From assembly GCF_006970865.1 (NCBI RefSeq), contig NZ_CP035503.1, forward strand, positions 509,001-573,000: 64,000 bases of DNA. The letters are read 5' to 3'. Each line of letters begins with the position of its first letter. Position 1 is the stretch's first letter. The notes below the pieces were generated by a model. It saw only the letters and a program-made list of their open reading frames with translations. It was not told the origin of the DNA and made no database searches. Source of the DNA: Rhodoferax sediminis. GTDB taxonomy: Bacteria > Pseudomonadota > Gammaproteobacteria > Burkholderiales > Burkholderiaceae_C. Below, piece by piece: positions 4,460-63,693 of this stretch. Position numbers and translations under genes: made by a program.

Positions 4460-4510
4460 TCAGCTTCTAGCCCTTGCTGAACATGCGTAGGTAGCTATCA
4501 AAATCTGAGC
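4460..4510 (-). repeat. Coding repeat copy 1 (3' end of hydroxylase/YhhN gene)
   Basis: The minus strand carries GCTCAGATTTTGATAGC (4510-4494), then 20 nt, then GGGCTAGAAGC. It encodes the C-terminal residues ILIATYACSARARS and the stop codon, so the element forms the end of the protein. Codons run ATA GCT ... AGG GCT, the same frame as every other sense copy. Confidence 0.75.
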
Positions 4511-6232
4511 GCAGTAGTAGCTGGACAAGACCCATAGCGGCGCCAGCGGCAGCGGGTGTGCAAAGCGGTCGATGGCCAGCAGCGCGTCGCTCAACATGAA
4601 AAATCCCGCCCCCACGGCCACCATCACGGCGCCCTGGTTGCGCAACAGCGTGGCGCGGCCGATGGCCTGCGCCGCCATCAGCGCGATGACCACCACGTAG
4701 GCGGCCACGGCCGGCCGCAGCACCGGTCCGATCCCGTGCCACAGGTAGGCGTACATGCCCGCACCCACACCCAGCGTGCCATAGAGCGCGCGCCGGCTCG
4801 GGAACCACACGGAGCGCACGCCCGCGACCTCGCGCCCCGTGCCCGCGCCGAGCGACTGCAGCTGCGCGGTGCCAAGCTTGAACAGCACGAGGTAGCACAG
4901 GTGGGCGATCAGGAACGCCACCAGCCCCGGGAGGAAGTAGCCCGGGAACATCAGCAGCACATCGCCCGCCAGCGCGGCCGCGAGCGCCGCCATCAACAGT
5001 GCATCCAATCGACCCTCAGCCCTGGTGGTACGGTGACTCAAGGCTACGAAAACCATAGCAATCACCATGGTCAGCGGCTTGAAGAGGTGGTGCAGGTCGG
5101 GCAGGCCCATGGCACTGCTCGCGGTGGCCAGCGCGGCGGACTCGATCAGGAGCACCTCCAGCACGTTGATGCGCCCCTGCAGCACGGCGCCGAGCGCCCA
5201 CAGGGCCGCCATTAACGCCGCCAGCCACACGGCGGCTTGCGCCAACGGCATGGTGTCGGCAAACCACAGGAACACGGAGACACCTGCCAGCAGCAGTGCG
5301 AACTGCACGCCGGAAAACCACAGTACGGCGCGGCTCACGAGGGGATGAAAGCGTTTGACCTGCGCCATCTCGAACGCCGGCTTGGGAAAGCGCTGAGCCA
5401 CGTCTGCAGGCCGCCAGCCCGGCGGTTTGAACCAGACGCGCAGCTTGTCACGCCAAAGGCGCGTGTGCCACGAGTCCTTGAGCAGCGCCCAATAGACTTC
5501 AAAGTTGGCCCACAGCGGATCCCAGCTGTTCAGCGCGCCGCGCGTGCCGTAGACGCATTTCTCGCGCTCTTCGGTGAAGGTGCCGAACAGCCGGTCCCAG
5601 ACGATCAGGATGCCGCCGTAGTTCTTGTCGAGGTAGGGGTCGTTCACGGCGTGGTGCACGCGGTGGTTCGACGGCGAGCAGAACCAGCGGTCGAACCAGC
5701 CCAGCCGGGGCACGTGCTCGGTGTGGACCCAGAACTGGTACAGCAGGTCGATCAGCGCGACGACGGTGAAGATCAAAGGCGGCACGCCGGCCACTGCCAT
5801 CGGCACATAGAAAATCCAGCGCAGCAGCTCGTAGGTGGCGGGTTGCCGCAGCGCGGTCGAGAGGTTGTAGTCCTGGCTCTGGTGGTGCACCACGTGTGCG
5901 GCCCACAGCACGGCGCTTCTGTGGCCCATGCGGTGCAGCCAGTAGTAGCACAGGTCGTAGAACAGCAGCGCCAGCAGCCAGCCGTACCAGGTGTTCCAGA
6001 ACTCCGGGTTCGGGTAGAGCGCGACGCCAGCGTAGATGGCGCTGTAGATGCCGATCTGCAGCAGCCGCGTGAACACCGCGCTGAGCTGGCTCAGAGCCCC
6101 AAGGCTGATGCTGTTGATGGCGTCGTTCAGACGGTAGGTGTTGCGGCCCTTCGCCCAGCCCCAGGCGAATTCGAAGGCGATCAGCAGCAGGAACACCGGC
6201 GTCGCGAGGACGATGATTTGGCTGGGGGTCAT
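4460..6232 (-). CDS. Sterol desaturase/fatty acid hydroxylase fused to YhhN-like domain
   Basis: A 590-residue integral membrane protein with two recognisable halves. Residues 1 to about 270 form a fatty-acid-hydroxylase (sterol desaturase superfamily) di-iron domain. Its histidine ligands are H100/H104 (HRMGH), H113/H116/H117 (HVVHH), H170/H173 (HTEH) and H190/H193/H194 (NHRVHH). Residues about 370-590 resemble the YhhN/TMEM86 lysoplasmalogenase family (LFKPLTM, then AGDVLLM and LVAFLIAHLCYLVLF). The hydroxylase superfamily includes alkylglycerol monooxygenase, which cleaves ether lipids, and TMEM86 hydrolyses vinyl-ether lysolipids. A joint role in ether-lipid cleavage is therefore an inference. 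Two copies of the window's coding repeat lie inside: one at residues 392-408 and one that encodes the last 15 residues and the stop. Confidence 0.85.
   Translation of the reverse strand: MTPSQIIVLATPVFLLLIAFEFAWGWAKGRNTYRLNDAINSISLGALSQLSAVFTRLLQIGIYSAIYAGVALYPNPEFWNTWYGWLLALLFYDLCYYWLHRMGHRSAVLWAAHVVHHQSQDYNLSTALRQPATYELLRWIFYVPMAVAGVPPLIFTVVALIDLLYQFWVHTEHVPRLGWFDRWFCSPSNHRVHHAVNDPYLDKNYGGILIVWDRLFGTFTEEREKCVYGTRGALNSWDPLWANFEVYWALLKDSWHTRLWRDKLRVWFKPPGWRPADVAQRFPKPAFEMAQVKRFHPLVSRAVLWFSGVQFALLLAGVSVFLWFADTMPLAQAAVWLAALMAALWALGAVLQGRINVLEVLLIESAALATASSAMGLPDLHHLFKPLTMVIAMVFVALSHRTTRAEGRLDALLMAALAAALAGDVLLMFPGYFLPGLVAFLIAHLCYLVLFKLGTAQLQSLGAGTGREVAGVRSVWFPSRRALYGTLGVGAGMYAYLWHGIGPVLRPAVAAYVVVIALMAAQAIGRATLLRNQGAVMVAVGAGFFMLSDALLAIDRFAHPLPLAPLWVLSSYYCAQILIATYACSARARS
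5010..5059 (-). repeat. Coding repeat copy 2 (within YhhN domain)
   Basis: The minus strand carries GCTATGGTTTTCGTAGC (5059-5043), 20 nt, then GGGCTGAGGGT. It is translated as FVALSHRTTRAEG, in a loop between the first two helices of the YhhN half. The 17+20+4 spacing is exact and the frame matches the other copies. Confidence 0.75.
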
Positions 6233-6259
6233 CGGCTCAGGACTCCCCGGGCCTGCTTG

Positions 6260-6901
6260 TCATGCGGTGGTTTCGTCGAGTGATTCATCGTCCTGGAGAT
6301 GGTTGGTGTCGGCCCAGCCGACCAGCGTCAGGCCCTGCGGCGTCCACAGCAGGCGGTTGATGGCCGCATTGCCCAGTGCCCAGGTGCGCGGCGCCTGCAA
6401 TTCCTGCCGCGTGGCGGCGCGGTACAGCACGTCCATCACGCCGCCGTGGCTGACCAGCGCGATCAGCTCGCCGCGGTGGCGCTCGGCCAGGGTCTGCACG
6501 GCGTGCGTCACGCGCTGCCTGAACTGCAACAGGGACTCGCCGCCCTCGGGCGCGAAGTCGGGGTCGCGCTTGCGCCAGCGCAGCGACTGTTCGGGCCACA
6601 GCGCCGCGATTTCGGCAAAGGTCTTGCCCTCGAATACGCCGAACTCGCGCTCGCGCAAACCCTCCTCGCTGAGCACCGGCAGCTCCGTGGCCTCGGCCAG
6701 CGCGAGCGCGGTCTCCCGCGCGCGCAGCAGGTCGCTCGCGTAAATGGTGCGGATGGGCTCGTCCGCCAGCGCCAGCGCCATGCGGCCAGCCTGCCAGCGG
6801 CCGGTCTCGTTGAGCGGAATGTCGAGCTGGCCCTGGATGCGGGTGTCTACGTTCCAGGCGGTTTCTCCGTGGCGGATGGCGAGGATGCGGGTAGTGTTCA
6901 T
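6260..6901 (-). CDS. Histidine phosphatase family protein
   Basis: A 213-residue cytoplasmic enzyme of the phosphoglycerate-mutase-like histidine phosphatase superfamily. The phospho-accepting histidine is in RHGETAWN (residues 10-17), with DIPLNETGRWQAG and YASDLLRARETA behind it. The acid/base Glu lies in REREFGVFEGKTF and the second catalytic His in LVSHGGVMDVLYR near residue 150. The substrate is not predictable: close relatives are called phosphoglycerate mutase, alpha-ribazole phosphatase or broad-range phosphatases. It starts with ATG at 6901; no strong ribosome-binding site is visible. It lies 28 bp upstream of the hydroxylase gene on the same strand, so the two may be cotranscribed. 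Confidence 0.9.
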   Translation of the reverse strand: MNTTRILAIRHGETAWNVDTRIQGQLDIPLNETGRWQAGRMALALADEPIRTIYASDLLRARETALALAEATELPVLSEEGLREREFGVFEGKTFAEIAALWPEQSLRWRKRDPDFAPEGGESLLQFRQRVTHAVQTLAERHRGELIALVSHGGVMDVLYRAATRQELQAPRTWALGNAAINRLLWTPQGLTLVGWADTNHLQDDESLDETTA

Positions 6902-6947
6902 GGGGGGCAGGGATCGTGTCGGAGGTTAGGTCAAGGGCCTCGTTTTT

Positions 6948-7889
6948 TCAGGTGATGTGCACCACCTGCACGCCGGCCGGTGCGAATGCCGGATGGGCGG
7001 GGGCGAAGTCTTCAGTGTCAAACGCCTTGTCGCCGTTGGCGTCCGCCACGCCGGTCGCGCGCGCGCCCTTGAAGTCGTACAGCGCGCCGTCGAGCAGGTG
7101 GCTGGGCACCACGTTTTGCAGGGCGTTGAACATGTTTTCCACGCGGCCTGGGAACTTCTTTTCCCACTCGCGCAGCATCTCGCCGACCTGCTTGCGCTGC
7201 AGGTTCTCCTGGCTGCCGCACAGGTTGCACGGAATGATCGGAAAGTCGCGGTGCTGCGACCAGCGCTGCGCGTCCTTCTCGGCCACGAAGGCCAGCGGGC
7301 GGATCACCACGTGGCGCCCGTCGTCGCTGACCAGCTTGGGCGGCATGCTCTTCATCTTGCCGCCGAAGAACATGTTCAGCAGCAGCGTCTGCAGGATGTC
7401 GTCGCGGTGGTGGCCCAGCGCGATTTTGGTCGCGCCCAGTTCGTCGGCCACGCGGTACAGGATGCCGCGGCGCAGCCGGCTGCACAGGCTGCAGGTGGTC
7501 TTGCCCTCGGGGATGAGGCGCTTGACGATGCTGTAGGTGTCCTCGTTCTCGATGTGAAACGGCACGCCCGTGCTCTTCAAATAGTCGGGCAGCACATGCT
7601 CGGGAAAGCCGGGCTGCTTCTGGTCCAGATTCACCGCGATCAGGTCGAAGTGGATCGGCGCGCGGCGCTTCAGCTTGAGCAGGATGTCGAGCAGCGTGTA
7701 GCTGTCCTTGCCGCCCGACATGCAGACCATGACCTTGTCGCCCTCCTCGATCATGTTGTACTGCACGATGGCGCGGCCCACCTCGCGGCACAGGCGCTTC
7801 TCGAGCTTGTGCGTTTCGCGCTCGATCTTCAAATCCCGGCTCGGTGGCACGATTTCGTTGTCAATCCACTGGGTGTTCACAAGATTCAC
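6948..7889 (-). CDS. ttcA: tRNA 2-thiocytidine(32) synthetase TtcA
   Basis: Thiolates cytidine 32 of some tRNAs in the cytoplasm, using ATP and an Fe-S cluster. The PP-loop motif [10 protein letters not shown] lies near residue 60. The two CxxC cluster motifs are CSLC (about residue 135) and CNLC (about residue 222), and [20 protein letters not shown] is typical of TtcA. Two tandem GTG codons (7892 and 7889) could start the protein; the one at 7889 overlaps the TGA of the upstream folB-like gene (GTGA), so it is preferred. The 313-residue length fits the family. It is the last gene of a short minus-strand run with the folM- and folB-like genes. Confidence 0.95.
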
Positions 7890-8257: not shown

Positions 8258-8320
8258 GGTCTTAGAGTGTTGAGGACAGAGCAAGATTGCTGCGCAATTC
8301 CTGGTCTGTCCCGCAAGGTT

Positions 8321-9115
8321 TTACATCATTGAAAAGTCTTGCTCGAACCGCATCAGATGCTGGCCGCCATCGACCAGCAGCGTGGTGCCCGTGATGGAGG
8401 AGTTTTCCAGCGCGAATTTCACGGCCGCCGCAACATCGGCGGGCGTTGAGGAGCGGCCCAGCGGCGAGAGCTTGTGCAGGGCCTCGAATTTCTCGTCGCT
8501 CAGCAGGTGGCTGGTCAGCGTCAGCCCCGGCGCCACGCCGACCACGCGCAGCTGCGGCGCCAGCGCCATGGCCAGCAGCGTGTTGGCGGCCTCCAGCGCA
8601 GCCTTGGACAGGGTGTAGCTGAAAAAGTCGGGATTCGGGTTCCACAGTTTCTGGTCGAGCAGATTCACCACCACGCCGGGCGCGCTTTGGCCCTCGCCTG
8701 CAGGATCGTCGCCCCGCGCCTTCACATGCTCGAACAAAGCCTGCGCCAGCAGGATCGGGGCGCCGGTATTGCTGCGCCAATGCGTTTCCATGGCCGCAAA
8801 GCTGAAGCTGGCCGGGCTGTCGTGCTCGAAGGTGGAGGCGCTGTTCACCACGGCGTCGACCGCGCCGAAGTGCTTGATGACCCGCGGCAGCAGCGCGCGC
8901 ACCGCGGCCTCGTCCGAGAGATCGGCATCAAAAGCGGCGCTGGCCCGCGACAGCTCTACGCAGTCAGCTACCGTTTTAATAGCGTCTGCCTGCGAGCCAC
9001 GGTAGTGCACCGCGACCTGCCAGCCGCTGGCCGCGAGCGCGAGCGCGATCTCGCGGCCCAGCCGTCTGGCGGAGCCGGTGACGAGAACCGTGCGGGGGCG
9101 GGCAGGGGCGGACAT
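8321..9115 (-). CDS. Pteridine reductase-like short-chain dehydrogenase (FolM-like)
   Basis: A 264-residue NAD(P)H-dependent short-chain dehydrogenase. The cofactor motif TGSARRLGREIA lies at residues 14-25; the Arg-rich form is typical of FolM and PTR1 pteridine reductases rather than ordinary SDRs. NSAST stands for the NNAG motif and YTLSKAAL holds the catalytic Tyr and Lys. GLTLTSHLLSD and the C-terminal GTTLLVDGGQHL complete the family. Its neighbour folB supports reduction of dihydropterins or dihydrofolate. Start ATG at 9115, only 20 bp from the divergent MidA gene. Copy 3 of the coding repeat lies inside (residues about 45-61). Confidence 0.87.
   Translation of the reverse strand: MSAPARPRTVLVTGSARRLGREIALALAASGWQVAVHYRGSQADAIKTVADCVELSRASAAFDADLSDEAAVRALLPRVIKHFGAVDAVVNSASTFEHDSPASFSFAAMETHWRSNTGAPILLAQALFEHVKARGDDPAGEGQSAPGVVVNLLDQKLWNPNPDFFSYTLSKAALEAANTLLAMALAPQLRVVGVAPGLTLTSHLLSDEKFEALHKLSPLGRSSTPADVAAAVKFALENSSITGTTLLVDGGQHLMRFEQDFSMM
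8932..8983 (-). repeat. Coding repeat copy 3 (in folM-like gene)
   Basis: The minus strand carries GCTATTAAAACGGTAGC (8983-8967), 20 nt, then GGGCCAGCGCC and GCTTTTGATG. It is translated as TVADCVELSRASA in the shared frame of the sense copies. Confidence 0.72.
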
Positions 9116-9135
9116 TCGGGGACAATTCGGCTCAG

Positions 9136-10290
9136 ATGACAACACAGCGTAGTTTAACGAGCACCCTCGCAAAGCAGATAGGGCGGGCCATCCAATCCAG
9201 CGGCGGCTGGATCGGCTTTGACGAGTACATGGCGCTGGCCCTGTACACGCCGGGCCTGGGCTATTACGCCAACGATTTGCGCAAATTTGGCACCATGCCG
9301 CACGGCGTGAAGGGCGGGGGCAGCGACTTCGTGACCGCGCCCGAGATGACGCCGCTGTTCGGCCAGACACTGGCCGCGCAGGTGGCGCAGGCGCTGCAAG
9401 TCACGCAGACGTGCGAGGTCTGGGAATTTGGCGCCGGCTCCGGCGCGCTGGCGCTGCAGCTGCTCGATACGCTGGATGCGTCGGGGGTGGCGGTGCAGAC
9501 CTACACCATCGTCGACCTGTCCGGCACGCTGCGCGAGCGCCAGCAGCAGACCCTGGCGGCACACGCCGGCCGGGTGCGCTGGGTCAGCGCATTGCCCGAG
9601 ACGATGCGGGGCGTGCTGGTGGGCAACGAGGTGCTGGACGCCATGCCGGTCAAGCTGCTGGTGCGCACAGATGGTGTGTGGCACGAGCGCGGCGTGGCCT
9701 GCGAGATGAGCCAGACGGGCGAGCCGGGCCGCTTCGTCTGGCAGGACCGGCCCACCGCGCTGCGCCCGCCGGTCGACATCCTTGGCGCGCACGACTACCT
9801 GACCGAGATCCACCCGCAGATGGAGGCCTTCATTCGCACGCTGGCCGGCACTTTGATGCGCGGCGCGGCCTTCTTCATCGACTACGGCTTTCCCGAGGCC
9901 GAGTACTACCATCCGCAGCGCCACATGGGCACCGTGATGTGCCACCGCGGGCACCTGGCCGACGCCGATCCGCTGGCCCTGGTCGGGCTCAAGGACATCA
10001 CGGCGCACGTCAACTTCACCGCTCTGGCGCTGGCGGCGCAGGAGGCCGTTACCTCGCCCGAAGCCGCGCAGGAGGTGGGCACGCTCGGCTACACGAGCCA
10101 GGCGCGCTTTCTCATGAACGCGGGTTTGCTCTCGAAACTGGAGCACGCAACGCTTGCCGAGCGCGCGATGGCGCTCAAATTAATCAACGAACACGAGATG
10201 GGCGAGTTGTTCAAGGTGATCGGCTTCTACAAGGGCGCGCCGTGGCAGGCGCTGGGTTTTGCGCAGGGCGACCGAACCCCTACACTCTGA
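9136..10290 (+). CDS. MidA family class I SAM-dependent methyltransferase (DUF185)
   Basis: A 384-residue relative of mitochondrial NDUFAF7/MidA, an arginine methyltransferase needed for complex I assembly; bacterial members are of unknown target. The conserved start GWIGFDEYMALALYTPGLGYYA is followed by FVTAPEMTPLFGQTLA, the SAM-binding motif EFGAGSGALALQLL near residue 97, and VGNEVLDAMPVKLL. FFIDYGFPEAEYY and HRGHLADADPL are also family hallmarks. The start ATG leaves only 20 bp to the divergent folM-like gene. The small DUF2905 gene follows two bases after its stop, so the two are coupled. Confidence 0.92.
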   Translation: MTTQRSLTSTLAKQIGRAIQSSGGWIGFDEYMALALYTPGLGYYANDLRKFGTMPHGVKGGGSDFVTAPEMTPLFGQTLAAQVAQALQVTQTCEVWEFGAGSGALALQLLDTLDASGVAVQTYTIVDLSGTLRERQQQTLAAHAGRVRWVSALPETMRGVLVGNEVLDAMPVKLLVRTDGVWHERGVACEMSQTGEPGRFVWQDRPTALRPPVDILGAHDYLTEIHPQMEAFIRTLAGTLMRGAAFFIDYGFPEAEYYHPQRHMGTVMCHRGHLADADPLALVGLKDITAHVNFTALALAAQEAVTSPEAAQEVGTLGYTSQARFLMNAGLLSKLEHATLAERAMALKLINEHEMGELFKVIGFYKGAPWQALGFAQGDRTPTL

Positions 10291-10292: not shown

Positions 10293-10493
10293 ATGATCCG
10301 CTGGTTTGCCGTCGTCTTCTTCGCGCTGGTGCTGCTCAGCGGGCTCACGCCGTGGCTGCACAAGCTCGGCTTTGGCCGGCTGCCCGGCGACCTGCGCTTT
10401 CGGCTGTTCGGGCGCGATTGGGACATTCCGCTGGCCAGCACCGTCCTGCTGAGTCTGGCGGCCAGTGTGCTCGTGCGGGTGTTGAGCCGTTGA
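10293..10493 (+). CDS. DUF2905 family small membrane protein
   Basis: A 66-residue protein with two predicted membrane helices (residues 3-20 and 47-64) separated by a conserved polar loop, LGFGRLPGDLRFRLFGRDWD, which defines the DUF2905 family. Function is unknown. It starts 2 bp after the MidA gene, and its stop overlaps the TTG start of the next gene by 4 bp, so it sits inside a three-gene transcription unit. Confidence 0.87.
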   Translation: MIRWFAVVFFALVLLSGLTPWLHKLGFGRLPGDLRFRLFGRDWDIPLASTVLLSLAASVLVRVLSR

Positions 10494-11476
10494 GCAACAG
10501 GACCCCGATCGATTTTGGCGCGCTGCGCGCCGCGCCCGTGGCCTGCGTGGACGTCGGCGGCACCAAGGTGGCCGTCAGCGTGGCGGACCGGCAGGGCCTG
10601 CACGGGCGCGTCACGGAACCCACGGCCAAGCAGGGCGCCAACGACGCACTGGGGCGCCAGGTCGTGCGCCTGATCGGCCAGAGCTGCGCCGCCGCGGGCC
10701 TGGCCGCCACCGATCTGGCGGCGGTGGGCGTGTCATCGTGCGGGCCGTTTGTGCTGAACCAGGGCCTGATCGAACTGTCGCAGCCCAACATCTGCGGCGG
10801 CCTGGCCGGCCCGGCGCGCGGCCTGCCCAATGATTGGCAAACTGCGCTGCTGGAGGCGCCGCTGCGCGAGAGTGTTGCCAGCGACACCTGCCTGCTCCGG
10901 ATCGAGAACGACGGCGTCGCTGCACTGGAAGCCGAGCGCCGCTGGGGCGCGCTGCAGGGCGTCGATCATTGCGCGTATGTCACCTGGAGCACCGGCATTG
11001 GCGTGGGACTGTGCGTGGGCGGCCAGGTGCTGCGCGGCAAGAGCGGCAATGCCGGCCACGCCGGGCACAGTTTCGTGAGCGACAACGAGCAGGCGCTGTG
11101 CGGCTGCGGCAACCGCGGCGACGTCGAGGCGCTGGTTGCGGGCAATGCCGTCGCAAGGCGGTTTGCGGCGCAGGGGTATGCCGACGCTGCTGCACTTTTC
11201 ATAGCTGCAAGCGCAGGTGATGTAAGGGCTACGGCCATGATTGACGAGATATGCCGGGTGCTGGGGCGCATGCTCTACAACCTGGTGGCCACGCTCGACT
11301 TGCAGCGCATTGCCATTGGTGGCGGCGTGTTCTGGCCGCACCGCGATTTTTTGCTGCCGCGCCTGCAGGCGCAGCTCACGGGCCGGCTGGCCGCACTGAC
11401 CGATGGCGCCGAACTGGTGCCTGCGGGGCTGGGCGACAAGGTCGGCGACTACGCCGCGCTGGCGCTGGTGGCTTGA
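10490..11476 (+). CDS. ROK family protein (sugar kinase-like)
   Basis: A 328-residue ROK-fold protein, probably an ATP-dependent sugar kinase. The phosphate-1 motif VDVGGTKVAVSVADRQG lies at residues 17-33, the catalytic Asp in ENDGVAALEAE near 140, and the second ATP region in WSTGIGVGLCVGG near 165. The ROK zinc motif is incomplete: CGCGNRGDVEALVAG has two early Cys plus GNRG, but Asp replaces the usual last Cys. H-x-G-H (NAGHAGHSFV) is intact. The TTG at 10490 overlaps the DUF2905 stop (TTGA) and is the first usable start in this frame. Copy 4 of the coding repeat encodes the helix near residues 234-250. Confidence 0.87.
   Translation: MSNRTPIDFGALRAAPVACVDVGGTKVAVSVADRQGLHGRVTEPTAKQGANDALGRQVVRLIGQSCAAAGLAATDLAAVGVSSCGPFVLNQGLIELSQPNICGGLAGPARGLPNDWQTALLEAPLRESVASDTCLLRIENDGVAALEAERRWGALQGVDHCAYVTWSTGIGVGLCVGGQVLRGKSGNAGHAGHSFVSDNEQALCGCGNRGDVEALVAGNAVARRFAAQGYADAAALFIAASAGDVRATAMIDEICRVLGRMLYNLVATLDLQRIAIGGGVFWPHRDFLLPRLQAQLTGRLAALTDGAELVPAGLGDKVGDYAALALVA
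11189..11240 (+). repeat. Coding repeat copy 4 (in ROK gene)
   Basis: GCTGCACTTTTCATAGC at 11189-11205, 20 nt, then GGGCTACGGCC. It is translated as FIAASAGDVRATA. This copy does not seem to lengthen the protein relative to the ROK family as I remember it. Confidence 0.75.
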
Positions 11477-20975: not shown

Positions 20976-22247
20976 TCAAGCGCCGGCTGCCGGCCAGCGG
21001 GCCGCGACTGCTGCGACCCGTGCCTGGTGAATCATCTCTCCAATCTTTGGACCTGTAGCCCCCGTGGATTGTGCGTGTTCGGCTATTGAATTTGTAGCGA
21101 CCTGCTGCGCGGCGGCGAGTGCCCCGAGCAGCCGCTCGCGCTGGGGATAAGCGCTCTGCTCCAGCCCCAGGCGGCCCCGCGCGTCGCATTCGCAGGCCAG
21201 CAGCGCGTCCGCGAATCGCTGTGGTTTGCGAAACGCATCGCAGCGCTCCAGCAGGCGCACCAGCGCCGCCGCCTGGAAGTCGCCGCTGCGGTGGATGTTG
21301 CCGTGTTCGCGCGCCACCACCTCGGCCAGTTCGCGGCATTCGGCGGGCACGCGCAGCCGTGCGCACACGCTCTTGACCAGTTTGACGCCGCGCTCCTCAT
21401 GGCCGATGTGGCGCGGCAGCGCGTCGGCCGGCGTCGTGCCTTTGCCGAGGTCGTGCATCAGGCAGGCAAAGCGCACCGGCAAGGGGGCGCCAAGCCGCGC
21501 ACTCATGTCGAGCACCAGCATCAGATGGACGCCGGTATCGACCTCGGGGTGATGCTGTGCGGGCTGCGGCACGCCCCAAAGTCGATCCACCTCGGGCAGC
21601 AGGACGCGCAGCGCGCCGCAATCGCGCAGCACCTCGAACAGGCGCGAAGGGGTGTTCTCCATCAGGCCGCGAGCCAGTTCCTGCCACACGCGCTCGGCCA
21701 CCAGCGCATCGACCTCGCCGTGGCCGACCATGTCCTGCATCAGCCGCATCGTCTCGGGCGCCACATGGAAGTCGGCAAAGCGCGCCGCAAAGCGCGCCAC
21801 GCGCAGGATGCGCACCGGGTCTTCGCGGAAGGCCTCGGTGACGTGGCGAAAGGTCTTGCTGCGCAAATCCCGCTGCCCGCCGTAAGGGTCGATCAGAGCC
21901 TTGGGATTTAGATGAAATGGGCTTGACGCCATTACTGCATCTGCATTGACAGCTATTGAATTGATAGTCAGGTCGCGCCGCGCGAGGTCCTGCTCCAGCG
22001 TCACGTCCGGCGTGGTGTGGAACGCAAAGCCGTGGTAGCCGCGCGCGGTCTTGCGCTCCGTGCGTGCCAGCGCGTATTCCTCGTGCGTTTGCGGGTGCAG
22101 GAACACGGGGAAGTCGCGGCCCACCGGCAGATAGCCCAGCGCGACCATCGCCTCGGGCGTGGCGCCCACCACCACCCAGTCGCGGTCCTGCACGGGCAAG
22201 CCCAGCAAGGCATCGCGCACCGCACCGCCAACCAAGTAGATCTGCAT
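20976..22247 (-). CDS. cca: Multifunctional CCA-adding protein
   Basis: tRNA nucleotidyltransferase that adds or repairs 3' CCA ends; 423 residues including a C-terminal HD-type phosphohydrolase domain. MQIYLVGGAVRDALLG is the class II nucleotidyltransferase start, followed by the DRDWVVVGATPE region and the RRDLTINSIA motif. HVTEAFREDPVRILRVARFA is the neck domain. The HD domain shows CLMHDLGKGTTP near residue 255 and VAREHGNIHR near 310. Two copies of the coding repeat lie inside. One follows the RRDLTINSIA motif and appears to add about 12 residues before IDPYGG; the other encodes part of the C-terminal region. Confidence 0.95.
   Translation of the reverse strand: MQIYLVGGAVRDALLGLPVQDRDWVVVGATPEAMVALGYLPVGRDFPVFLHPQTHEEYALARTERKTARGYHGFAFHTTPDVTLEQDLARRDLTINSIAVNADAVMASSPFHLNPKALIDPYGGQRDLRSKTFRHVTEAFREDPVRILRVARFAARFADFHVAPETMRLMQDMVGHGEVDALVAERVWQELARGLMENTPSRLFEVLRDCGALRVLLPEVDRLWGVPQPAQHHPEVDTGVHLMLVLDMSARLGAPLPVRFACLMHDLGKGTTPADALPRHIGHEERGVKLVKSVCARLRVPAECRELAEVVAREHGNIHRSGDFQAAALVRLLERCDAFRKPQRFADALLACECDARGRLGLEQSAYPQRERLLGALAAAQQVATNSIAEHAQSTGATGPKIGEMIHQARVAAVAARWPAAGA
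21047..21098 (-). repeat. Coding repeat copy 5 (3' part of cca)
   Basis: The minus strand carries GCTACAAATTCAATAGC (21098-21082), 20 nt, then GGGCTACAGGT. It is translated as SIAEHAQSTGATG near the C-terminus of CCA. Confidence 0.75.
21917..21968 (-). repeat. Coding repeat copy 6 (5' part of cca)
   Basis: The minus strand carries ACTATCAATTCAATAGC (21968-21952), 20 nt, then TGGCGTCAAGCC and CATTTCATC. It is translated as SIAVNADAVMASS, directly after the RRDLTIN motif. The GGGC box has one mismatch, and the left palindrome end is ACTA instead of GCTA. Confidence 0.68.
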
Positions 22248-29104: not shown

Positions 29105-29182
29105 AGCGTACCGCGTTTTCATTGGACTGCCAAGGCATTGGCGACCATCATTCATTCCTGATTAGCTGATATGGAGAACGCC

Positions 29183-29722
29183 ATGACCTCGCAAAATGTT
29201 CTGCAATTGCAACAACCCACGCCCGGCGCTGCGCTGCCCGGCTGCTGGAAGCTGGACGCCGGCCGCGCCGTGACCCTGCGGCCGCGCGAGGCGGGTGTGT
29301 TGCGTATTGCGCAGGGCCAGGTATGGGCTACCCTGCAAGGCCCGCACCGCGGTCCCGCCAACGACCTGGGCGACCGTTTTCTGCACCCCGGCGAGTCGCT
29401 GGCGTTGCGGGCGGGACAACGCCTGGTACTCGAGCCCTGGGATGCAGCCGGCAGTGCGCCGGCCTGGTTCAGCTGGGACCCGCAGCCTGCCGCCGCACAG
29501 AATCCGCCTCGTGCGGTGCGCGGATGGGGTGTCGCCGTGGGTCAGCCCCTGGCCGATTTGCGCCTGGCGCTTGGCGGCGTGGCCCGGGCGTTGGGCGGCG
29601 CGGCGGGCGCGGTGGTCCGCCTGGGCGCGGGCTTGGCCGGATTCGCTATCGATTTGCTAGCTGGTCGTGTCCGCCCTGCGGGGGCTGAGCACGCTTTTAG
29701 TGCCGATTCCAGGGCCAGGTAG
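29183..29722 (+). CDS. DUF2917 domain protein
   Basis: A 179-residue protein whose N-terminal half matches DUF2917: GCWKLDAGRAVTLRPREAG, then GQVWATLQGPHRGPANDLGD, with the HPGESLALRAGQRLVLEPWD cupin-like strand pattern. The C-terminal half is Ala/Gly/Leu-rich and poorly conserved. Its last residues (LLAGRVRPAGAEHAFSADS) come from copy 7 of the coding repeat. ATG at 29183 is chosen because GGAG lies six bases ahead; the ATG at 29171 overlaps that signal. Function is unknown. The divergent LysR gene is the likely regulator. Confidence 0.82.
   Translation: MTSQNVLQLQQPTPGAALPGCWKLDAGRAVTLRPREAGVLRIAQGQVWATLQGPHRGPANDLGDRFLHPGESLALRAGQRLVLEPWDAAGSAPAWFSWDPQPAAAQNPPRAVRGWGVAVGQPLADLRLALGGVARALGGAAGAVVRLGAGLAGFAIDLLAGRVRPAGAEHAFSADSRAR
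29645..29696 (+). repeat. Coding repeat copy 7 (3' end of DUF2917 gene)
   Basis: GCTATCGATTTGCTAGC at 29645-29661, 20 nt, then GGGCTGAGCACGCTTTTAG. It is translated as LLAGRVRPAGAEH and supplies most of the C-terminal tail, much as copy 1 does for the hydroxylase gene. Confidence 0.73.
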
Positions 29723-37226: not shown

Positions 37227-38126
37227 TTACGGTTGCGGCAACGCCAGCTGTGCCAGGTCCCGTTCGTAGGCGCGCAGCCTTTGTACAGCGGTGTCGCGCT
37301 GGCCGGCCGTGGCGGTGTTGTGCGTCAAGGCGACGCTGCGGCAGTCTTCCTGCAGCAGGGCTTGCTGGTAGGCGCGGTATGCAGGGTTGGGCGAGTCGAG
37401 TGCGCGCTCGAAGTAGCCGTGGACCAGGTCGCGCGCGTCGCCTTCAGGCAGCCCGGCCTGTGTGATCCGGCGCAGCGTCTGCAGCGCATCCTGCTGGCGG
37501 CGCAGCCGCTCTTCGTAGCTCATGCGCGCATCAAAACCCGACAGCGCCACTTGCGCGCGAAGACTGTCTTTTTGAGCGCCGTCAAGCCGGCCGTAGATCA
37601 TTTCAGTGCGTGCCAGCCACTGCTTGTAGCGCTTGTCCGACTGCTCCGCGGGTGCCCTGGACAGCCACTCCTTGCGGTAGCGCGCGTCAGCCTTCGCGTA
37701 CTTGCGATCCAGCCCCTGCAATTGCGCCGGCGTCAGCGTCATGGCCAGTGCCGTCGCGGCAGGCTCGATCTGCGCCAAGAGGGTCCCCAGGTGCCGGCGC
37801 ATTTCCAGGGCAATGGCACAAACCTGCTCTGGCCCAATATCGGCGGTGGCCAATTGCTCCACTTTCTGTAGCAATTCGACATACCGGGGCAATTCGGTTG
37901 AGCGGTGCCAGAGCTGCAGCCGGGCCAGATCCGCGCGCAGCTGCAGGGTTTGCGCCTCATTGAAATCCACATAGCCGTCCAGCCACCAGTACCCGACGCC
38001 CGCGGCATTGTTGTAGGCGATCTTGATCGTGCTGCAGGCCGCCAGCGCAAGCGTGAACATCAGCCAGCCGATAATCCGGGCTACGCTTCCGGCCCAGGCC
38101 GGCAGAAAACGCACAGGAGGAGTCAT
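37227..38126 (-). CDS. DUF6279 family lipoprotein
   Basis: A protein of about 299 residues with a lipoprotein signal (IIGWLMFTLALAAC-STIKIA) and the DUF6279 hallmark start YNNAAGVGYWWLDGYVDFNE. The rest is helical and rich in Arg, Leu and Gln. It should be anchored to a membrane facing the periplasm; function is unknown. The start is unsure: ATG at 38126 shares bases with the glmU ATG on the other strand (the sequence CATG serves both), and a GTG at 38114 is an alternative. Neither has a good ribosome-binding site. Confidence 0.82.
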   Translation of the reverse strand: MTPPVRFLPAWAGSVARIIGWLMFTLALAACSTIKIAYNNAAGVGYWWLDGYVDFNEAQTLQLRADLARLQLWHRSTELPRYVELLQKVEQLATADIGPEQVCAIALEMRRHLGTLLAQIEPAATALAMTLTPAQLQGLDRKYAKADARYRKEWLSRAPAEQSDKRYKQWLARTEMIYGRLDGAQKDSLRAQVALSGFDARMSYEERLRRQQDALQTLRRITQAGLPEGDARDLVHGYFERALDSPNPAYRAYQQALLQEDCRSVALTHNTATAGQRDTAVQRLRAYERDLAQLALPQP

Positions 38127-39534
38127 GACAGCAATCGATGTGGTCATCATGGCCGCGGGCAAGGGCACGCGGATGAAGAGCCGCTTGCCCAAAGTATTGC
38201 ACCGCCTGGCCGGGCGTGCCCTGCTCGACCATGTGATCGACACGGCCGCCGGCCTGAATGCGCGCCATGTGGTTGTCGTGACCGGTCACGGTGCTACTGA
38301 AGTTGAAGCGGCTTGCCAAGGCGTGGCAAGGGCTACAGCCGGTTTTGACATAAAGTTTGTACGCCAGGAGCCGCAGCTGGGCACCGGCCACGCCGTGCAG
38401 CAGGCGGCCCCAATGCTGCCCGATGACGGCGTCGTCGTGGTGCTCTCGGGCGACGTGCCTTTGACCCGCGCTGAAGCCTTGCGCGCCCTGATCGAGGCCT
38501 GCGGCGGGGACAAGCTGGCGCTGTTGACCATCAACTTCACCGACCCGACCGGGTATGGACGCATCGTGCGTGCGGGCGCGTCGGTGCAGGCCATCGTCGA
38601 GCACAGGGACGCGAGCGAAGCCCAGCGCGCGATCACGGAGGTGTACAGCGGCATCATGGCCGTGCCGGCGCGCCGGCTCAAAGGCTGGCTGGGGCGGCTG
38701 GACAACAAGAACGTGCAGGGCGAGTACTACCTGACCGATATCGTGAAGCTGGCCGTGGCCGACGGCGTGCCGGTGGTCGCGCACCGGATTGACGACGCGC
38801 TGCAGGTGGCCGGTGTCAACAGCCCGGTGCAGCTGGCCGAGCTCGAGCGAGCGCTGCAGCTGCAGCAGGCACGCGCGCTGATGGAGCAGGGTGTGCGCAT
38901 CGCGGACCCCGCGCGGTTCGATCTGCGCGGCACGCTGGTCTGCGCGCAGGACGTGGAAATCGACGTGAACTGCGTGTTCGAGGGCCGCGTCAGCCTGGGC
39001 GAGGGCGTGAAGATCGGCGCCCATTGCGTGATTGCGAATGCGGTGATCGCGGCCGGCGCGGTGATCCATCCGTTCACCCACATCGAAGGCGGCCCGCACA
39101 GCGCGCAGGACCAGGTGGAGGTCGGCGCGGGCGCACGGATCGGCCCGTTTGCGCGTTTGCGACCAGGCGCCCATCTGGGTGCCGAGGTGCATATTGGCAA
39201 CTTTGTCGAAGTGAAGAATTCGACGCTGGCCAAAGGGGCCAAGGCCAACCATCTGGCCTATCTGGGCGACGCCAGCGTGGGCGAGCGCGTGAACTACGGG
39301 GCCGGCAGCATCACCGCCAACTACGACGGCGCCAACAAGCACCGCACGGTGATCGAGCACGACGTGCACATCGGCAGCAACTGCGTGCTGGTGGCACCGG
39401 TGACGATTGGGGCCGGTGGCACCGTGGGCGGTGGCTCCACCATCATCCGCGACACGCCGCCGGGCGCCTTGAGCGTTGCGCGCGGCCGGCAGGTGAGCAT
39501 TGCCGACTGGCAGCGCCCGGCGAAGAAAAAATAG
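38125..39534 (+). CDS. glmU: Bifunctional GlmU (GlcNAc-1-P uridyltransferase/GlcN-1-P acetyltransferase)
   Basis: Makes UDP-GlcNAc for peptidoglycan and LPS. The 469-residue protein has an N-terminal uridyltransferase domain (VVIMAAGKGTRMKSRLPKVL at residues 6-25, QLGTGHAVQQA near 95) and a C-terminal left-handed beta-helix acetyltransferase domain (hexapeptide repeats from about residue 255, NYGAGSITANYDGANKHRT near 395). AGGAGG lies four bases ahead of the ATG. Copy 8 of the coding repeat falls between the GHG and the QEPQLGTGHAV motifs and seems to add several residues. glmS lies 1.3 kb downstream on the same strand. Confidence 0.96.
   Translation: MTAIDVVIMAAGKGTRMKSRLPKVLHRLAGRALLDHVIDTAAGLNARHVVVVTGHGATEVEAACQGVARATAGFDIKFVRQEPQLGTGHAVQQAAPMLPDDGVVVVLSGDVPLTRAEALRALIEACGGDKLALLTINFTDPTGYGRIVRAGASVQAIVEHRDASEAQRAITEVYSGIMAVPARRLKGWLGRLDNKNVQGEYYLTDIVKLAVADGVPVVAHRIDDALQVAGVNSPVQLAELERALQLQQARALMEQGVRIADPARFDLRGTLVCAQDVEIDVNCVFEGRVSLGEGVKIGAHCVIANAVIAAGAVIHPFTHIEGGPHSAQDQVEVGAGARIGPFARLRPGAHLGAEVHIGNFVEVKNSTLAKGAKANHLAYLGDASVGERVNYGAGSITANYDGANKHRTVIEHDVHIGSNCVLVAPVTIGAGGTVGGGSTIIRDTPPGALSVARGRQVSIADWQRPAKKK
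38293..38344 (+). repeat. Coding repeat copy 8 (in glmU)
   Basis: GCTACTGAAGTTGAAGC at 38293-38309, 20 nt, then GGGCTACAGCCGGTTTTGAC. It is translated as VEAACQGVARATA. The right end of the palindrome is GAAGC rather than TAGC, but the later boxes are strong matches. Confidence 0.72.
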
Positions 39535-59411: not shown

Positions 59412-59436
59412 AAATTGGCGGCCGTTGAGACAAGCA

Positions 59437-59464
59437 ATAAAAGAAAACCCGGGCTCACCCGGGT
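59437..59464 (-). terminator. Intrinsic terminator between soxX and soxB
   Basis: Reading the minus strand, ACCCGGG-TGAG-CCCGGGT forms a 7-bp GC-rich stem with a four-base loop and is followed by TTTCTTTTA. This should end or reduce transcription after soxX, before soxB, and could lower soxB expression relative to soxYZAX. Confidence 0.7.
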
Positions 59465-59487
59465 CTGACAGAGGCCAGGCCCGTCGG

Positions 59488-60135: not shown

Positions 60136-60147
60136 AGTGCTGCCTCC

Positions 60148-60951: not shown

Positions 60952-60972
60952 GGGCACCTCGCCTTGTTGTTG

Positions 60973-61284
60973 TCAAGAAACCGTGGCCTCGTCGGTCCGG
61001 CTGTCGCCCTTGGTGTCCTTCCAGCTGATGCCGATCTTGTCGCCCGCCTTGGCGCCCTTCACGGTGAACTGCAAAAACGGGTTCTTCGAGACGGCCGGTC
61101 CCCATTCGGCCGTCATCACGGTCTTGCCATTGAGCGTGGCGGTCACGTCCTGGATGTGCCAGGCCGGGATCATTTTGCCAGCGGAATCCTTGCGCTGGCC
61201 GGATTCCATTTCGTGCGCCATCAGCACACGCACAACGGCGTTGGCGCCAGCGACTTGAGCGCGAATGCGCATCGGATCTCCCAT
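60973..61284 (-). CDS. soxZ: Sulfur carrier partner SoxZ
   Basis: A 103-residue immunoglobulin-like protein that pairs with SoxY as the sulfur-carrying SoxYZ complex. MGDPMRIRAQVAGANAVVRV and LMAHEMESGQRKDSAGKMIP are the SoxZ signature, with WGPAVSKNPFLQFTVKGAKA after it. GGAG lies eight bases before the ATG at 61284. It has no signal peptide and is presumably exported with SoxY by Tat. Confidence 0.94.
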   Translation of the reverse strand: MGDPMRIRAQVAGANAVVRVLMAHEMESGQRKDSAGKMIPAWHIQDVTATLNGKTVMTAEWGPAVSKNPFLQFTVKGAKAGDKIGISWKDTKGDSRTDEATVS

Positions 61285-61334
61285 TTTCAACTCCTCAATC
61301 TGGTTTCGAACAATGAAATAAACGCACGACGGGC

Positions 61335-61790
61335 TCAGCCGCCGCAGCCACCGAGCGTGACCTTGATTTCCTTTTTGGCGAACAGGGCCCGGCCGTCGGC
61401 CATGACGGCTACGACATAAACGTCGGACGTCTGGCCCATCTTCACGCGCGTCTTGAAGTTGGGCTCGATGCTGTCATTCACATGGAACACGGCCGCCAGG
61501 GTCGAGGGGTTCTTTTCGACCAGTATCAGGATCTGCTTGGGACCCGCGAGCGTGGTGGAGGCGCCCACTGGCACCACGGCGCCGTTTTCGGCGATGTCCG
61601 GGCCTTCGATCATGACGTCCTTGCTGGCAACCGGCGCGCCGGCACCCAGGGCTTTGAGCACGTCCGGCACGCTTTTCGCGTCGAAGGCGGTGTTGTTGTA
61701 AGCCCATGCGAATTGCGGGAACAGGCCGGTCGCGGCCAGCAGGCTAGCCACGACGGCGCTTCGATGGAGAGTCTCGCGACGAGTTTGCAT
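61335..61790 (-). CDS. soxY: Sulfur carrier SoxY
   Basis: A 151-residue carrier that bears the sulfur chain on its C-terminal Cys. It ends in KVTLGGCGG, the conserved SoxY swinging arm. The N-terminus MQTRRETLHRSAVVASLLAA is a Tat signal with a twin arginine, cleaved near FAWA-YNN. ATG at 61790 has AGGA eight bases upstream; an ATG at 61805 would add five residues and lacks such a signal. First gene of the visible sox operon. Confidence 0.94.
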   Translation of the reverse strand: MQTRRETLHRSAVVASLLAATGLFPQFAWAYNNTAFDAKSVPDVLKALGAGAPVASKDVMIEGPDIAENGAVVPVGASTTLAGPKQILILVEKNPSTLAAVFHVNDSIEPNFKTRVKMGQTSDVYVVAVMADGRALFAKKEIKVTLGGCGG

Positions 61791-61920
61791 ATATGAATTC
61801 CTCATGGTTAGACCGATTTTAATAAATTTTTCGAGATTTAGAACCGCAGATTCTCCGACGCTATTTTCCCGCACCTGAAGCCGGCCATCCTGCCAGGGCC
61901 TTGGCGTCGGCGCCCTGCGG

Positions 61921-63693
61921 TCAACTCGCGCTTTCCTTGATCTGGTACAGCGACGGCGCGCCCTCGGGGCGTTTTTCCAGCGTCCATCGCTGGCTGTGCA
62001 GCGCGCTCAAGGCCGGTCGATGCGCTATTGAAACGATAGCGCCACCCGCATGCTGTACTTGGGCCAGAAGCCTTTCATACACTTGTTTTTCGGCTGGCTC
62101 GTCGAGTGCGCTGGTGGCCTCGTCGGCAAAAATCCACTTGGGTTTTTTCAGCAGCACGCGCGCGATCGCCAGGCGCTGCTGCTCGCCGCCCGAGAGCTTC
62201 TGGCTCCACGCGTCCTGCGTATCGAGCTGCGTCGCCAACTGCGGCAGCAGGGCATCGGTCAGGGCCTGGCGCAGCGCCGCGTCGGTGTACTGATCGGCCG
62301 GCAGGGGATAGGCCAGCGCATCGCGCAGCCGGCCATTGGGAAAATAGGGACGCTGCGGAATGAACATCGAATCTGCGGGCTGTTCCACCCGGCCGCGGGC
62401 AAACGGCCAGATGCCGGCAAAGGCGCGGAACAGCGTGGACTTGCCGCTGCCCGAGGGGCCCTTGATCAGCACGCTGTCGCCGGCGCGCGCGTGCAGGGTG
62501 ACGTCCGAGAGCAGCACCGTGCCGCCGGGCAGCGCCAGCGTCAGGCCGTGCGTGGCCAGCGTGTCGGGCGCTACGGAATTCGTAGCCCCCAATGTAGACT
62601 GGGTCTGGGCTTGCGCCGCCATGCTCTCCTCAAAACTGGTCAGGCGGTCGGCCGTGGCGCGCCAGGCGGCCAGGCTGCTGTAGTTGTCGACAAACCAGCC
62701 CAGCGAATCCTGCACGCGGCCAAACGCGGAGGCAATCTGCATCAGCTCGCCGAGCTGGATGGCGCCGCTGAAAAAGCGTGGCGCCGCCACGATGAACGGA
62801 AACACCACGGCCGCCTGGCCAAAAAAATTGGTGAACCAGACCAGGTTTTTTTGCGCCTTGAGCAGCTTGAGAAAGTTGGACAGCACGCTGGAAAAGCGGC
62901 CGTCGAGTTGCGCGCGCTCCACGGCCTCGCCCTTGTCCAGCGCGATTGATTCGCTGTACTCGCGCACGCGCACCATGTGGTGCCGGAAATCGGCCTCGTA
63001 GCGCTGCTGCAGGAAGTTGAGCCGGATCTGCGGGCGGCCAATGTAATGGGTCGCGACGCTGCCCGCCATGCAGTACAGCACCGCCATCCAGACCATGAAG
63101 CCGGGGATGTTGTAGCTGCCGCCGTCAAATTTGAACGCAAAGCCGCCTGACAGGCTCCACAGGATGCCGACAAAGCTGGCCAGTGTGACGACTGCGTTGA
63201 GCAGCCCCATCGTGAGTGAGATGGTGTAGCTGGTGAACAGGTTCAAGTCTTCCTGGATGCGCTGGTCGGGGTTGTCGGGCGTGGCCCCGGCGTCGCCGGT
63301 AAAGCGCGCCAGCTCGAGCTGATAGAACGCATGATGGGCCAGCCAGCGCTGCAGGTAGTGGCCCGTCATCCAGGCGCGCCAGCGCAGCTCCAGCAGCTGG
63401 GTCAGGTAGAAGCGGTACACCGCGATGAGGATGAAGGCGAACGCGAGGTAGGTGAAGCGCCCGAGCTGGGTCCAGAACACAGGTTCGTTCTTGTTCTGCA
63501 GTGCGTCGTAGAACAGCCGGTTCCAGTCGTTGAGCAGCACCAGCATGTACACCGCCCCCAGGTTCAGCAGCACGATGGCCACCAGCAGGCCACGCGCCTT
63601 CCACTTTTCTTCGGACTGGAAATAGGGCAGCGACAGCGCCCAGACCTTGCGTGTGAAGACCTTGAAATCGGTGATTTTGGTGGACAGGCTCAT
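61921..63693 (-). CDS. SbmA/BacA-like ABC transporter, fused permease and ATPase
   Basis: A 590-residue half-transporter. The N-terminal six-helix membrane domain (residues about 20-330) is of the SbmA/BacA-like type that moves peptides, cobalamin or long-chain lipids, with RLNFLQQRYEADFRHHMVRV as a family segment. The ATPase domain has Walker A LIKGPSGSGKSTLFRAFAGI near residue 412, signature LSGGEQQRLAIARVLL, Walker B KWIFADEATSALDE and the switch His in VSIAHRPAL. Substrate unknown. Two antisense copies of the coding repeat lie within the ATPase half. Its ATG overlaps the stop of the upstream nucleotidase gene. Confidence 0.9.
   Translation of the reverse strand: MSLSTKITDFKVFTRKVWALSLPYFQSEEKWKARGLLVAIVLLNLGAVYMLVLLNDWNRLFYDALQNKNEPVFWTQLGRFTYLAFAFILIAVYRFYLTQLLELRWRAWMTGHYLQRWLAHHAFYQLELARFTGDAGATPDNPDQRIQEDLNLFTSYTISLTMGLLNAVVTLASFVGILWSLSGGFAFKFDGGSYNIPGFMVWMAVLYCMAGSVATHYIGRPQIRLNFLQQRYEADFRHHMVRVREYSESIALDKGEAVERAQLDGRFSSVLSNFLKLLKAQKNLVWFTNFFGQAAVVFPFIVAAPRFFSGAIQLGELMQIASAFGRVQDSLGWFVDNYSSLAAWRATADRLTSFEESMAAQAQTQSTLGATNSVAPDTLATHGLTLALPGGTVLLSDVTLHARAGDSVLIKGPSGSGKSTLFRAFAGIWPFARGRVEQPADSMFIPQRPYFPNGRLRDALAYPLPADQYTDAALRQALTDALLPQLATQLDTQDAWSQKLSGGEQQRLAIARVLLKKPKWIFADEATSALDEPAEKQVYERLLAQVQHAGGAIVSIAHRPALSALHSQRWTLEKRPEGAPSLYQIKESAS
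62024..62075 (+). repeat. Coding repeat copy 9 (antisense in ABC transporter gene)
   Basis: GCTATTGAAACGATAGC at 62024-62040, 20 nt, then GGGCCAGAAGCCTTTCATAC. The element points against the gene. The gene reads it as LLAQVQHAGGAIVSIA, next to the switch-histidine region. Confidence 0.7.
62570..62621 (+). repeat. Coding repeat copy 10 (antisense in ABC transporter gene)
   Basis: GCTACGGAATTCGTAGC at 62570-62586, 20 nt, then GGGCTTGCGCCGCCATGC. It also points against the gene, in the same codon phase as copy 9. The gene reads it as AAQAQTQSTLGATNSVA, the linker between membrane and ATPase domains. Confidence 0.72.

Follow-up and report, generated by a model that had tools for sequence, protein, structure and literature searches.

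What keeps a repeat of fixed architecture inside one gene after another of Rhodoferax sediminis? The question is raised by a window of 64,000 nt (NZ_CP035503.1, positions 509,001 to 573,000), in which ten sites had been picked out as sharing GCTA-N9-TAGC, exactly 20 nt and then GGGC or TGGC, and had been likened to the palindromic elements that Rickettsia inserts into its genes. We have found that these sites belong to hundreds of loosely matching copies of one signal of ~70 letters, lying both inside and between genes. The best explanation at present, to which we would give somewhat less than an even chance, is that the element is a ~70-bp double-stranded-DNA self signal, held at ~600 places, that would work like the DNA uptake sequences (DUS) of other bacteria while being far longer, with a surface receptor as its candidate reader.

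An alignment of 48 exact genome matches places the conserved region from ~4 bases before GCTA to ~64 after it, and the unit of 41-52 nt given in the original prediction is too short. The element is a degenerate motif of ~70 nt that opens with the dyad GCTAY-N7-RTAGC, continues in patches to GGGCT and closes with an A/T-rich end. A profile was built on columns -4 to +65 and trained on exact matches from the R. sediminis genome; its consensus, gaTTGCTATTAATTTAATAGCTgaTTGCGCAgAtttgACAAGGGCTAcAGgCcnATTTgATTtAAAATTt, amounts to ~42 bits. The sample scanned with this profile consisted of the window and 20 evenly spaced 20-kb stretches, 464 kb in all, with genes taken from a simple caller (439 genes, 87% coding). 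A score of at least 20 bits was required of a copy, and the reversed pattern and reversed sequences served as controls for the pattern and profile counts, respectively.

The exact pattern occurs 188 times genome-wide (89 and 99 by strand) against 5 (3 and 2) for its reversed form. When up to two mismatches were allowed, the window held 18 occurrences compared with a mean of 8.9 in dinucleotide shuffles, and 0 of 100 shuffles reached 18. The profile returned 67 copies against 0 in reversed sequences, and 70 against 5 at a threshold of 8 bits; both are in-sample counts, as the training matches come from the scanned stretches. The resulting density, ~1 copy per 7 kb, extrapolates to ~630 copies in the 4.39-Mb chromosome. 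Shuffling synonymous codons with the proteins kept left a mean of 2.85 in-gene copies (at most 5 in 20 shuffles), where 34 were observed. A dispersed, genome-wide element, far above both dinucleotide and codon-preserving shuffles, had been anticipated and is borne out. The ten sites are all in the sequence as written, and they score 33-60 bits with a profile that was partly trained on them. The exact GCTA-N9-TAGC-N20 pattern undercounts the element, as seen in loci of Polaromonas CG_9.7 and CG9_12, in each of which the profile picks out four copies within 21 kb. Among the matches listed, copies diverge widely from one another in sequence.

Of the 67 sampled copies, 34 lie wholly in genes (22 sense, 12 antisense), 16 run across a gene end and 17 are intergenic, the last being found between convergent, tandem and divergent genes alike. 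The ten original sites are indeed all in called genes (the one at 4460 straddles a stop codon, and those at 62024 and 62570 are antisense), but the description of the element as coding DNA does not hold genome-wide, where only these 34 of the 67 are wholly genic. Its occurrence on both strands, in sense and antisense, and in all intergenic contexts argues against a promoter, a terminator or an mRNA signal.

Within genes the element is often translated, as had been proposed, and all eight listed sense sites are read in phase 0. A single sense frame is nevertheless not the rule, for the 22 sense copies of the sample number 14, 1 and 7 in phases 0, 1 and 2, and the 12 antisense copies 1, 10 and 1. 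Stop codons interrupt the consensus in every phase but sense phase 0 and antisense phase 1, and each of the seven phase-2 sense copies has its TAG altered (T lost in six, G in one). The shared sense frame thus exists largely because the stop codons of the motif filter out the other phases. The 17 intergenic copies are open in sense phases 0, 1 and 2 in 10, 3 and 1 cases and in antisense phases 0, 1 and 2 in 0, 7 and 7, so that stop codons account only in part for the excess of phase 1 over phase 2 among antisense copies. The frames are therefore not evenly spread, but their unevenness is no proof of in-frame insertion.

The palindromic opening was examined for signs of pairing. Covariation was assessed in 98 copies among the matches listed for the genome, excluding opposite-strand overlaps, and in 33 copies from genome G040. 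In the 98 copies, dyad positions 4 and 12 are independent (T-A 38, C-A 25, C-G 16, T-G 15; Fisher p 0.38) with fewer Watson-Crick pairs in the inner part than expected. When 49 of the 67 copies, chiefly the higher-scoring ones, were aligned without gaps, pairing came to 66.6% versus 68.4% in shuffles and RNAalifold gave no consensus structure, and the window holds no Rfam match at gathering scores. A hairpin or RNA structure was rejected on the absent covariation, the absent consensus fold and the absent Rfam match. A dyad without covariation is more likely a site on double-stranded DNA than a hairpin, and its independent half-sites are probably suited to a protein bound to double-stranded DNA.

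If the copies had been inserted, homologues lacking them should be shorter by about one element. The matches of six same-genus relatives to the window are ~76-97% identical, and the comparison of sites was made without L086 and L108, which duplicate stretches of G070 and G120. The copies found in the stretches of G070 (ten) and G124 (four) all sit gap-free on window sites; G123 carries one weak copy (24 bits) at a gap-free position where the window has none, and five further copies without a match in the window. The element-free comparison set comprised 19 loci, mostly from other genera, and a spanning element-free homologue was available for 89 of 98 in-gene elements. Against element-free homologues, the median net difference was 0 at the second site in the poly(A) polymerase-like gene (12/12 gap-free) and at the FA_hydroxylase site (2/2 gap-free), +1 in GlmU, +2 in the ROK protein, -1.5 in the short-chain dehydrogenase and +12 at the first polymerase site (3/19 gap-free); the two ABC transporter sites, with one homologue each, gave +1 and -10. 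Conserved host motifs spell parts of the element in their codons, namely RRDLTINSIA in the poly(A) polymerase-like protein and GHG..VE in GlmU. In the latter, the opening portion of the element falls on a GHG..V stretch shared with a GlmU of solved structure, compared with which this region has 7 extra residues, not 23; at the first polymerase site the excess over a solved relative is 8 residues. A length difference of no more than 2 residues was seen at 92% of control places in the same proteins, as against 43% of element sites, which indicates that copies occupy indel-prone places.

Relative to the closest element-less relative, in-gene sites differ by -66, -42, -27, -20, -6, 0, 0, 0, 0, 20 and 30 nt, and other sites by -74, -55, -17, -3, 0, 9, 28 and 188 nt. 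An element-sized difference is absent at 10 of the 11 in-gene sites. One antisense in-gene site, in a conserved gene of four Polaromonas (L098:2420-2489, L099, L138 and L091), displays a clean gain of 66 nt, or 22 residues, that is absent from 39 of 40 element-less relatives; locus L112 has extra length at the same place without a scoring element. Another site differs by -60 to -74 nt from one relative. No target duplication was obvious at the sole filled/empty site that aligned cleanly. The 10 sites without an element-sized gap and the single element-length gain lead us to conclude that most in-gene copies do not resemble whole insertions, although a minority of sites may be.

Codon choice separates the DNA of the motif from the protein that it encodes. 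At RRDLTINSIA, loci were grouped by their own copy (40 and 30 of 80 loci, those with a weak copy at the site or a copy only elsewhere being excluded). Isoleucine was written ATA in 40/40 loci with a copy and threonine ACT in 37/40, and both were found in 0/30 element-free loci, a contrast that is partly circular in that the copy defines the group. The same loci were therefore also divided by the elements lying outside the gene (72 of 80 loci, 8 being too short, in groups of 30, 9 and 33). With at least two outside elements, the rare ATA was used in 24/30 and ACT in 23/30; with one, in 8/9 and 6/9; and with none, in 5/33 and 4/33 (Fisher p ~2e-7 for each codon, related loci being treated as independent). 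At this one well-sampled site, element-rich genomes thus favour rare codons in agreement with the motif. In the two closest relatives, G070 and G124, combined, third codon positions at conserved element columns were identical in 48/48 cases versus 1953/2226 in flanks, and low-information positions of the element were less conserved than flanks. Across the six relatives, the conserved columns exceeded the weak columns of the same elements (93/119 versus 103/174, p 0.001).

The element was counted across the family in 120 genomes, 51 of which had at least one match, 69 none and 20 at least 20, with a maximum of 538. Outside the family, 146 genomes from 50 other families of the order yielded between 0 and 4 matches each, and in most of them the reversed control gave as many or more. 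Among 46 named genomes, high counts were found in Polaromonas RGN.1 (437), P. eurypsychrophila (297), Rhodoferax KJN.1 (273), the Ramlibacter metagenome-assembled genome ACE_PRO44 (225) and R. ferrireducens A7 (97); Polaromonas CG_9.7 and CG9_12 had 14 each by exact pattern. At the low end were Polaromonas JS666 (3, with a control of also 3), three Variovorax (0-2), five of seven Ramlibacter (0-4) and both Caldimonas (0). The motif is thus patchy within one family and at chance level elsewhere in the order. The suggestion that such sequences are abundant in Comamonadaceae is correct for many members, Polaromonas and Rhodoferax among them. Spacer dialects differ by lineage. A strong spacer dialect of its own (..AGTGRCCGYCCGGCAAGGGC), unlike that of other genomes, was seen in many of the matches listed for ACE_PRO44 (genome G150; locus L126).

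Within R. sediminis, copies per 20-kb stretch rise with codon typicality (rho 0.71, p 4e-4, n=20), and also track GC (rho 0.65) and coding fraction (rho 0.59). Four stretches had no copies: L033, with integrase, IS66 and Wadjet-type genes, and L038, L044 and L045, which are mostly catabolic (5 proteins scanned each). Enrichment in the core genome and rarity in acquired DNA, as known for uptake sequences, are seen only through codon typicality as a proxy. Adjacent copies less than 500 bp apart number 1 versus 4.65 expected (p 0.04), and those less than 1000 bp apart 5 versus 8.9 (p 0.09). A strict motif scan of viral contigs gave 1 contig among the matches listed (L180:3497-3538). As a separate observation, the region L033:6495-19998 holds Wadjet JetA and an SMC-like gene on a stretch with a phage-type integrase and an IS66 transposase.

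Genes that might read or move the element were surveyed by presence. ComEC occurs in 45 of the 46 named genomes, with or without elements, and the sole genome in which it was missed, a draft, has 50 matches. ComP_DUS pilins occur in 115 of 120 genomes and do not separate element-rich from element-free ones. A tree of 36 pilins, drawn from 40 pilin regions of which four gave no pilin open frame, and with at least four rows resembling other prepilin-type proteins, has no single clade that holds the element-rich genomes. These genomes cluster partly (8 label changes versus 12.4 in shuffles, with 7/500 as low), which kinship alone may yield. A RAYT-like Y1 transposase gene is present in R. sediminis. 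Y1_Tnp was found in 29/32 genomes with at least 5 matches versus 46/69 with none (p 0.013), and RAYT in all element-rich named genomes and also in most element-free ones; the three of 46 named genomes without it have 0, 0 and 2 matches. It was not found in G020 (100% complete, 44 matches), G068 (96%, 62 matches) or G040 (74%, 189 matches). In 8 of 14 RAYT loci (L166-L169, L173, L174, L176 and L178), a copy or weak copy (17.6-43.5 bits) lies on the opposite strand at about the 3' end of the gene. RAYT as a necessary mover was set aside, the association being weak and not decisive.

The signature described here resembles that of DUS in Neisseriaceae and of uptake signal sequences (USS) in Pasteurellaceae, which likewise occur in hundreds of copies on both strands, in and between genes at permissive places, are scarce in atypical DNA, form lineage dialects and are patchily distributed. 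Neisserial DUS are described as lying in the core genome and in permissive regions while being conserved themselves, and recombination, not point mutation alone, is reported to create new ones, which often stand opposite unrelated sequence or gaps (PMC2397512); lineage dialects have been reported for Neisseriaceae (PMC3630211). Uptake by the comamonad Verminephrobacter eiseniae is sequence-selective and dependent on type IV pili, and Acidovorax temperans was transformed only by DNA of its own species; the passages describing this work name no uptake sequence for either (PMC4212676). This DUS-like signature, combined with published selective uptake in comamonads, is why an uptake signal is ranked first. 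Its observed basis is the number of copies, their extent and dialects, the lack of hairpin covariation, persistence in close relatives, motif-directed codons at one well-sampled site and scarcity in codon-atypical stretches. Under this model, selection or molecular drive acting on the DNA itself would maintain the ~70-bp signal at its ~600 chromosomal places. A surface DNA receptor of the competence apparatus, the putative reader, would prefer DNA that bears the signal, and recombination would then spread alleles carrying it. Copies would accumulate where the host tolerates them, that is, between genes and in permissive protein loops, mostly in stop-free frames. In a broader form, which we put forward more tentatively as a possibility short of an even chance, the element would be a ~70-bp composite watermark of self with ~600 copies and genus-level dialects, by which Polaromonas, Rhodoferax and other Comamonadaceae could choose the DNA of kin. 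It would be by far the longest signal of the uptake type, and would have come to occupy coding sequence, a catalytic-domain motif included, for the most part without insertion. It would fade genome-wide when a lineage loses the reader, as Polaromonas JS666 may have.

Several results weigh against the uptake signal. Checks of ComEC, the ComP_DUS pilin and the pilin tree revealed no trans-acting gene whose occurrence follows that of the elements. Known uptake sequences are 9-12 bp long (~30 bp with flanks in Haemophilus influenzae) and number 1500-2000 copies in Neisseriaceae and Pasteurellaceae, whereas the conserved positions of this candidate signal span ~70 bp with no short 9-12 bp core; a length of 70 bp and ~42 bits would be extraordinary for an uptake signal, and the 17-bp dyad suits a dimeric DNA-binding protein. 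In the six relatives, several of which are without sites, third positions at the element were no better conserved than flanks (93/119 versus 4035/5351, p 0.59), and in G121, G123 and G122 they were below flanks. A median net insertion of at least 8 residues was found in 47% of the 89 in-gene cases versus 4% of control places, many of these cases coming from one gene, and at 3 of 19 sites the length departs from that of the closest element-less relative by roughly one element, as a mobile element would also predict. Copy density over 20-kb stretches is not more even than random (variance 3.0, mean 2.75).

A protein reader need not belong to the uptake machinery. The element could be bound by a cytoplasmic protein, one that organises the chromosome or some other, seated as a dimer on GCTAY-N7-RTAGC with further contacts along the ~70 bp. 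The non-covarying dyad, indifference to orientation, the few close pairs and the lineage dialects with their large between-genome differences agree with this explanation, but we consider it unlikely: ~600 sites of ~42 bits, half of them in genes, would require selection at every site, copies are distributed no more evenly than by chance, no candidate protein was found, and the known chromosome-organising sites (parS, matS and those of Noc and SlmA) are shorter and far fewer. It is rather unlikely that the element is a small non-autonomous mobile repeat of the repetitive extragenic palindrome (REP) or miniature inverted-repeat transposable element type, perhaps moved by RAYT in an old spread, with in-gene copies as drifted insertions and dialects as successive amplifications. 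The clean Polaromonas gain and the second site of -60 to -74 nt are what such a repeat would leave behind, and the 17 intergenic copies, the copies at the 3' end of RAYT genes, the excess of RAYT in genomes with at least 5 matches and the near-absence of matches in the three named genomes lacking it point the same way. Opposed to this are the 10 of 11 in-gene sites without an element-sized difference, the gap-free second polymerase site, the host motifs that spell part of the element, the wide divergence among the matches listed, the absence of a copy from L033 (the one mobile island sampled), the lack of an obvious target duplication at the one cleanly aligned site, and the occurrence of RAYT in many element-free genomes together with the failure to find it in G020, G068 and G040. 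REP sequences are, like the present element, dispersed and palindromic, and a RAYT-like gene is at hand in this genome; REP hairpins covary, however, unlike the dyad described here, and the link to RAYT is weak.

Two further proposals fare much worse. A structured RNA, terminator or mRNA processing signal, to which the palindromic start and the T-rich end after GGGC..GCC might seem to point, is highly improbable given the pairing, folding and Rfam results in the 49-copy alignment and the window and the frequency of both sense and antisense copies. The comparison with Rickettsia palindromic elements, which are inserted in frame as an additional peptide and fold as palindromes, does not survive. 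The likeness is that of a repeated element translatable within genes, and the single phase of the eight listed sense copies and the one 22-residue gain would fit a peptide selected as such. The sense phase is accounted for by stop codons, however, a quarter of the sampled copies are intergenic and 12 are antisense, host motifs account for several of the translated residues, and neither hairpin covariation nor, at most in-gene sites, an element-sized insertion is seen. Placement, the stop-codon filter and the homologue comparison contradict in-frame insertion of this type, and we regard it as scarcely credible.

Part of the element may have been met before. The motif pair ATAGCT(N)22CAAAAG of Polaromonas naphthalenivorans CJ2 has 125 copies, of which 101 are intergenic (81%), 18 in genes and 6 overlapping a gene end; the relevant portion of that study calls it a potential novel motif with no function given, and credits R. 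ferrireducens T118 with 140 significant motif pairs, the highest number among its test genomes (PMC5217627). The two words would land in register on the RTAGCT of the dyad and on the stretch that begins with the C of GGGC, and the only exact match in 400 kb of named-Polaromonas loci is in register on an element. By this register, which was obtained without CJ2 sequence, the pair would be the present element, described there as two short words and, in the portion concerned, without extent, relatives or function (PMC5217627). The beta-proteobacterial repeat element, BRE, is shared by Bordetella and Comamonadaceae, with some copies within genes, and seems to be set apart by its published size (~90 bp), GC richness (69%), sometimes tandem arrangement and counts of at most 29 copies in Polaromonas JS666 (PMC3110155); JS666, the genome richest in BRE, is nearly without the present element. 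In the text of PMC2755013 that bears on the subject, palindromic repeats are mentioned only as CRISPR. Our literature search recognised no description of the extent, coding copies or function of the element.

Should the uptake-signal explanation be true, self-DNA recognition would extend from Neisseriaceae and Pasteurellaceae to a large environmental family, and there would be another case of hundreds of coding-DNA sites shaped by a signal unrelated to the protein. Whatever the reader, the ~70-bp sequence now offers a concrete bait and Polaromonas JS666 a natural near-loss, and together with the dialects these make the reader protein directly findable. The codon data also serve as a warning that a genome-wide DNA motif can dictate the codon choice and loop sequences of conserved enzymes.

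Table 1. Profile copies of the element in the window, with host genes and the state of the site elsewhere
Feature	Score (bits)	Position	Strand	Gene and placement	Same site in other genomes or homologues
Element copy	60	4445..4514	-	Straddles stop codon of FA_hydroxylase/YhhN gene 4460-6232 (-); sense phase 0	Gap-free in G070, G123
Element copy	41	4994..5063	-	Within gene 4460-6232 (-); sense phase 0	Copy in G070, G124, G120, weakly G121; none in G122, G123
Element copy	48	8918..8987	-	Within short-chain dehydrogenase gene 8321-9115 (-); sense phase 0	Copy in 6/6 same-genus relatives
Weak copy	26	10124..10193	+	Within Methyltransf_28 gene 9229-10290 (+); phase 2, TAGC changed to GAGC; not in the original prediction	Weak copies in G070, G124, G120
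Element copy	47	11185..11254	+	Within ROK-family gene 10490-11476 (+); sense phase 0	Gap-free against element-free ROK proteins except 4 residues at element start
Element copy	51	21033..21102	-	C-terminal part of poly(A) polymerase/CCA-transferase-like gene 20976-22247 (-); sense phase 0	Gap-free in 12/12 spanning element-free homologues
Element copy	51	21903..21972	-	Poly(A) polymerase-like gene 20976-22247 (-); conserved RRDLTINSIA spells dyad; sense phase 0	
Element copy	39	29641..29710	+	Near 3' end of DUF2917 gene 29171-29722 (+); sense phase 0	
Weak copy	22	37807..37876	-	No gene called there; not in the original prediction	Also in G070
Element copy	54	38289..38358	+	Within glmU 38023-39534 (+), over GHG-ATEVEA; sense phase 0, TAGC reads AAGC in Glu codon	
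Element copy	39	62020..62089	+	Antisense in SbmA/BacA-like ABC gene 61921-63693 (-)	
Element copy	33	62566..62635	+	Antisense in SbmA/BacA-like ABC gene 61921-63693 (-)	

Two other features of the window were observed. The gene that holds the first two copies encodes a 590-residue protein in which a fatty-acid-hydroxylase domain is fused to a YhhN domain. Directly downstream of the short-chain dehydrogenase gene, at 8263-8322, lies a second dispersed repeat of ~50 bp with inverted GGACAGA...TCTGTCC ends, which has many copies of ~80-94% identity in this genome and genus.

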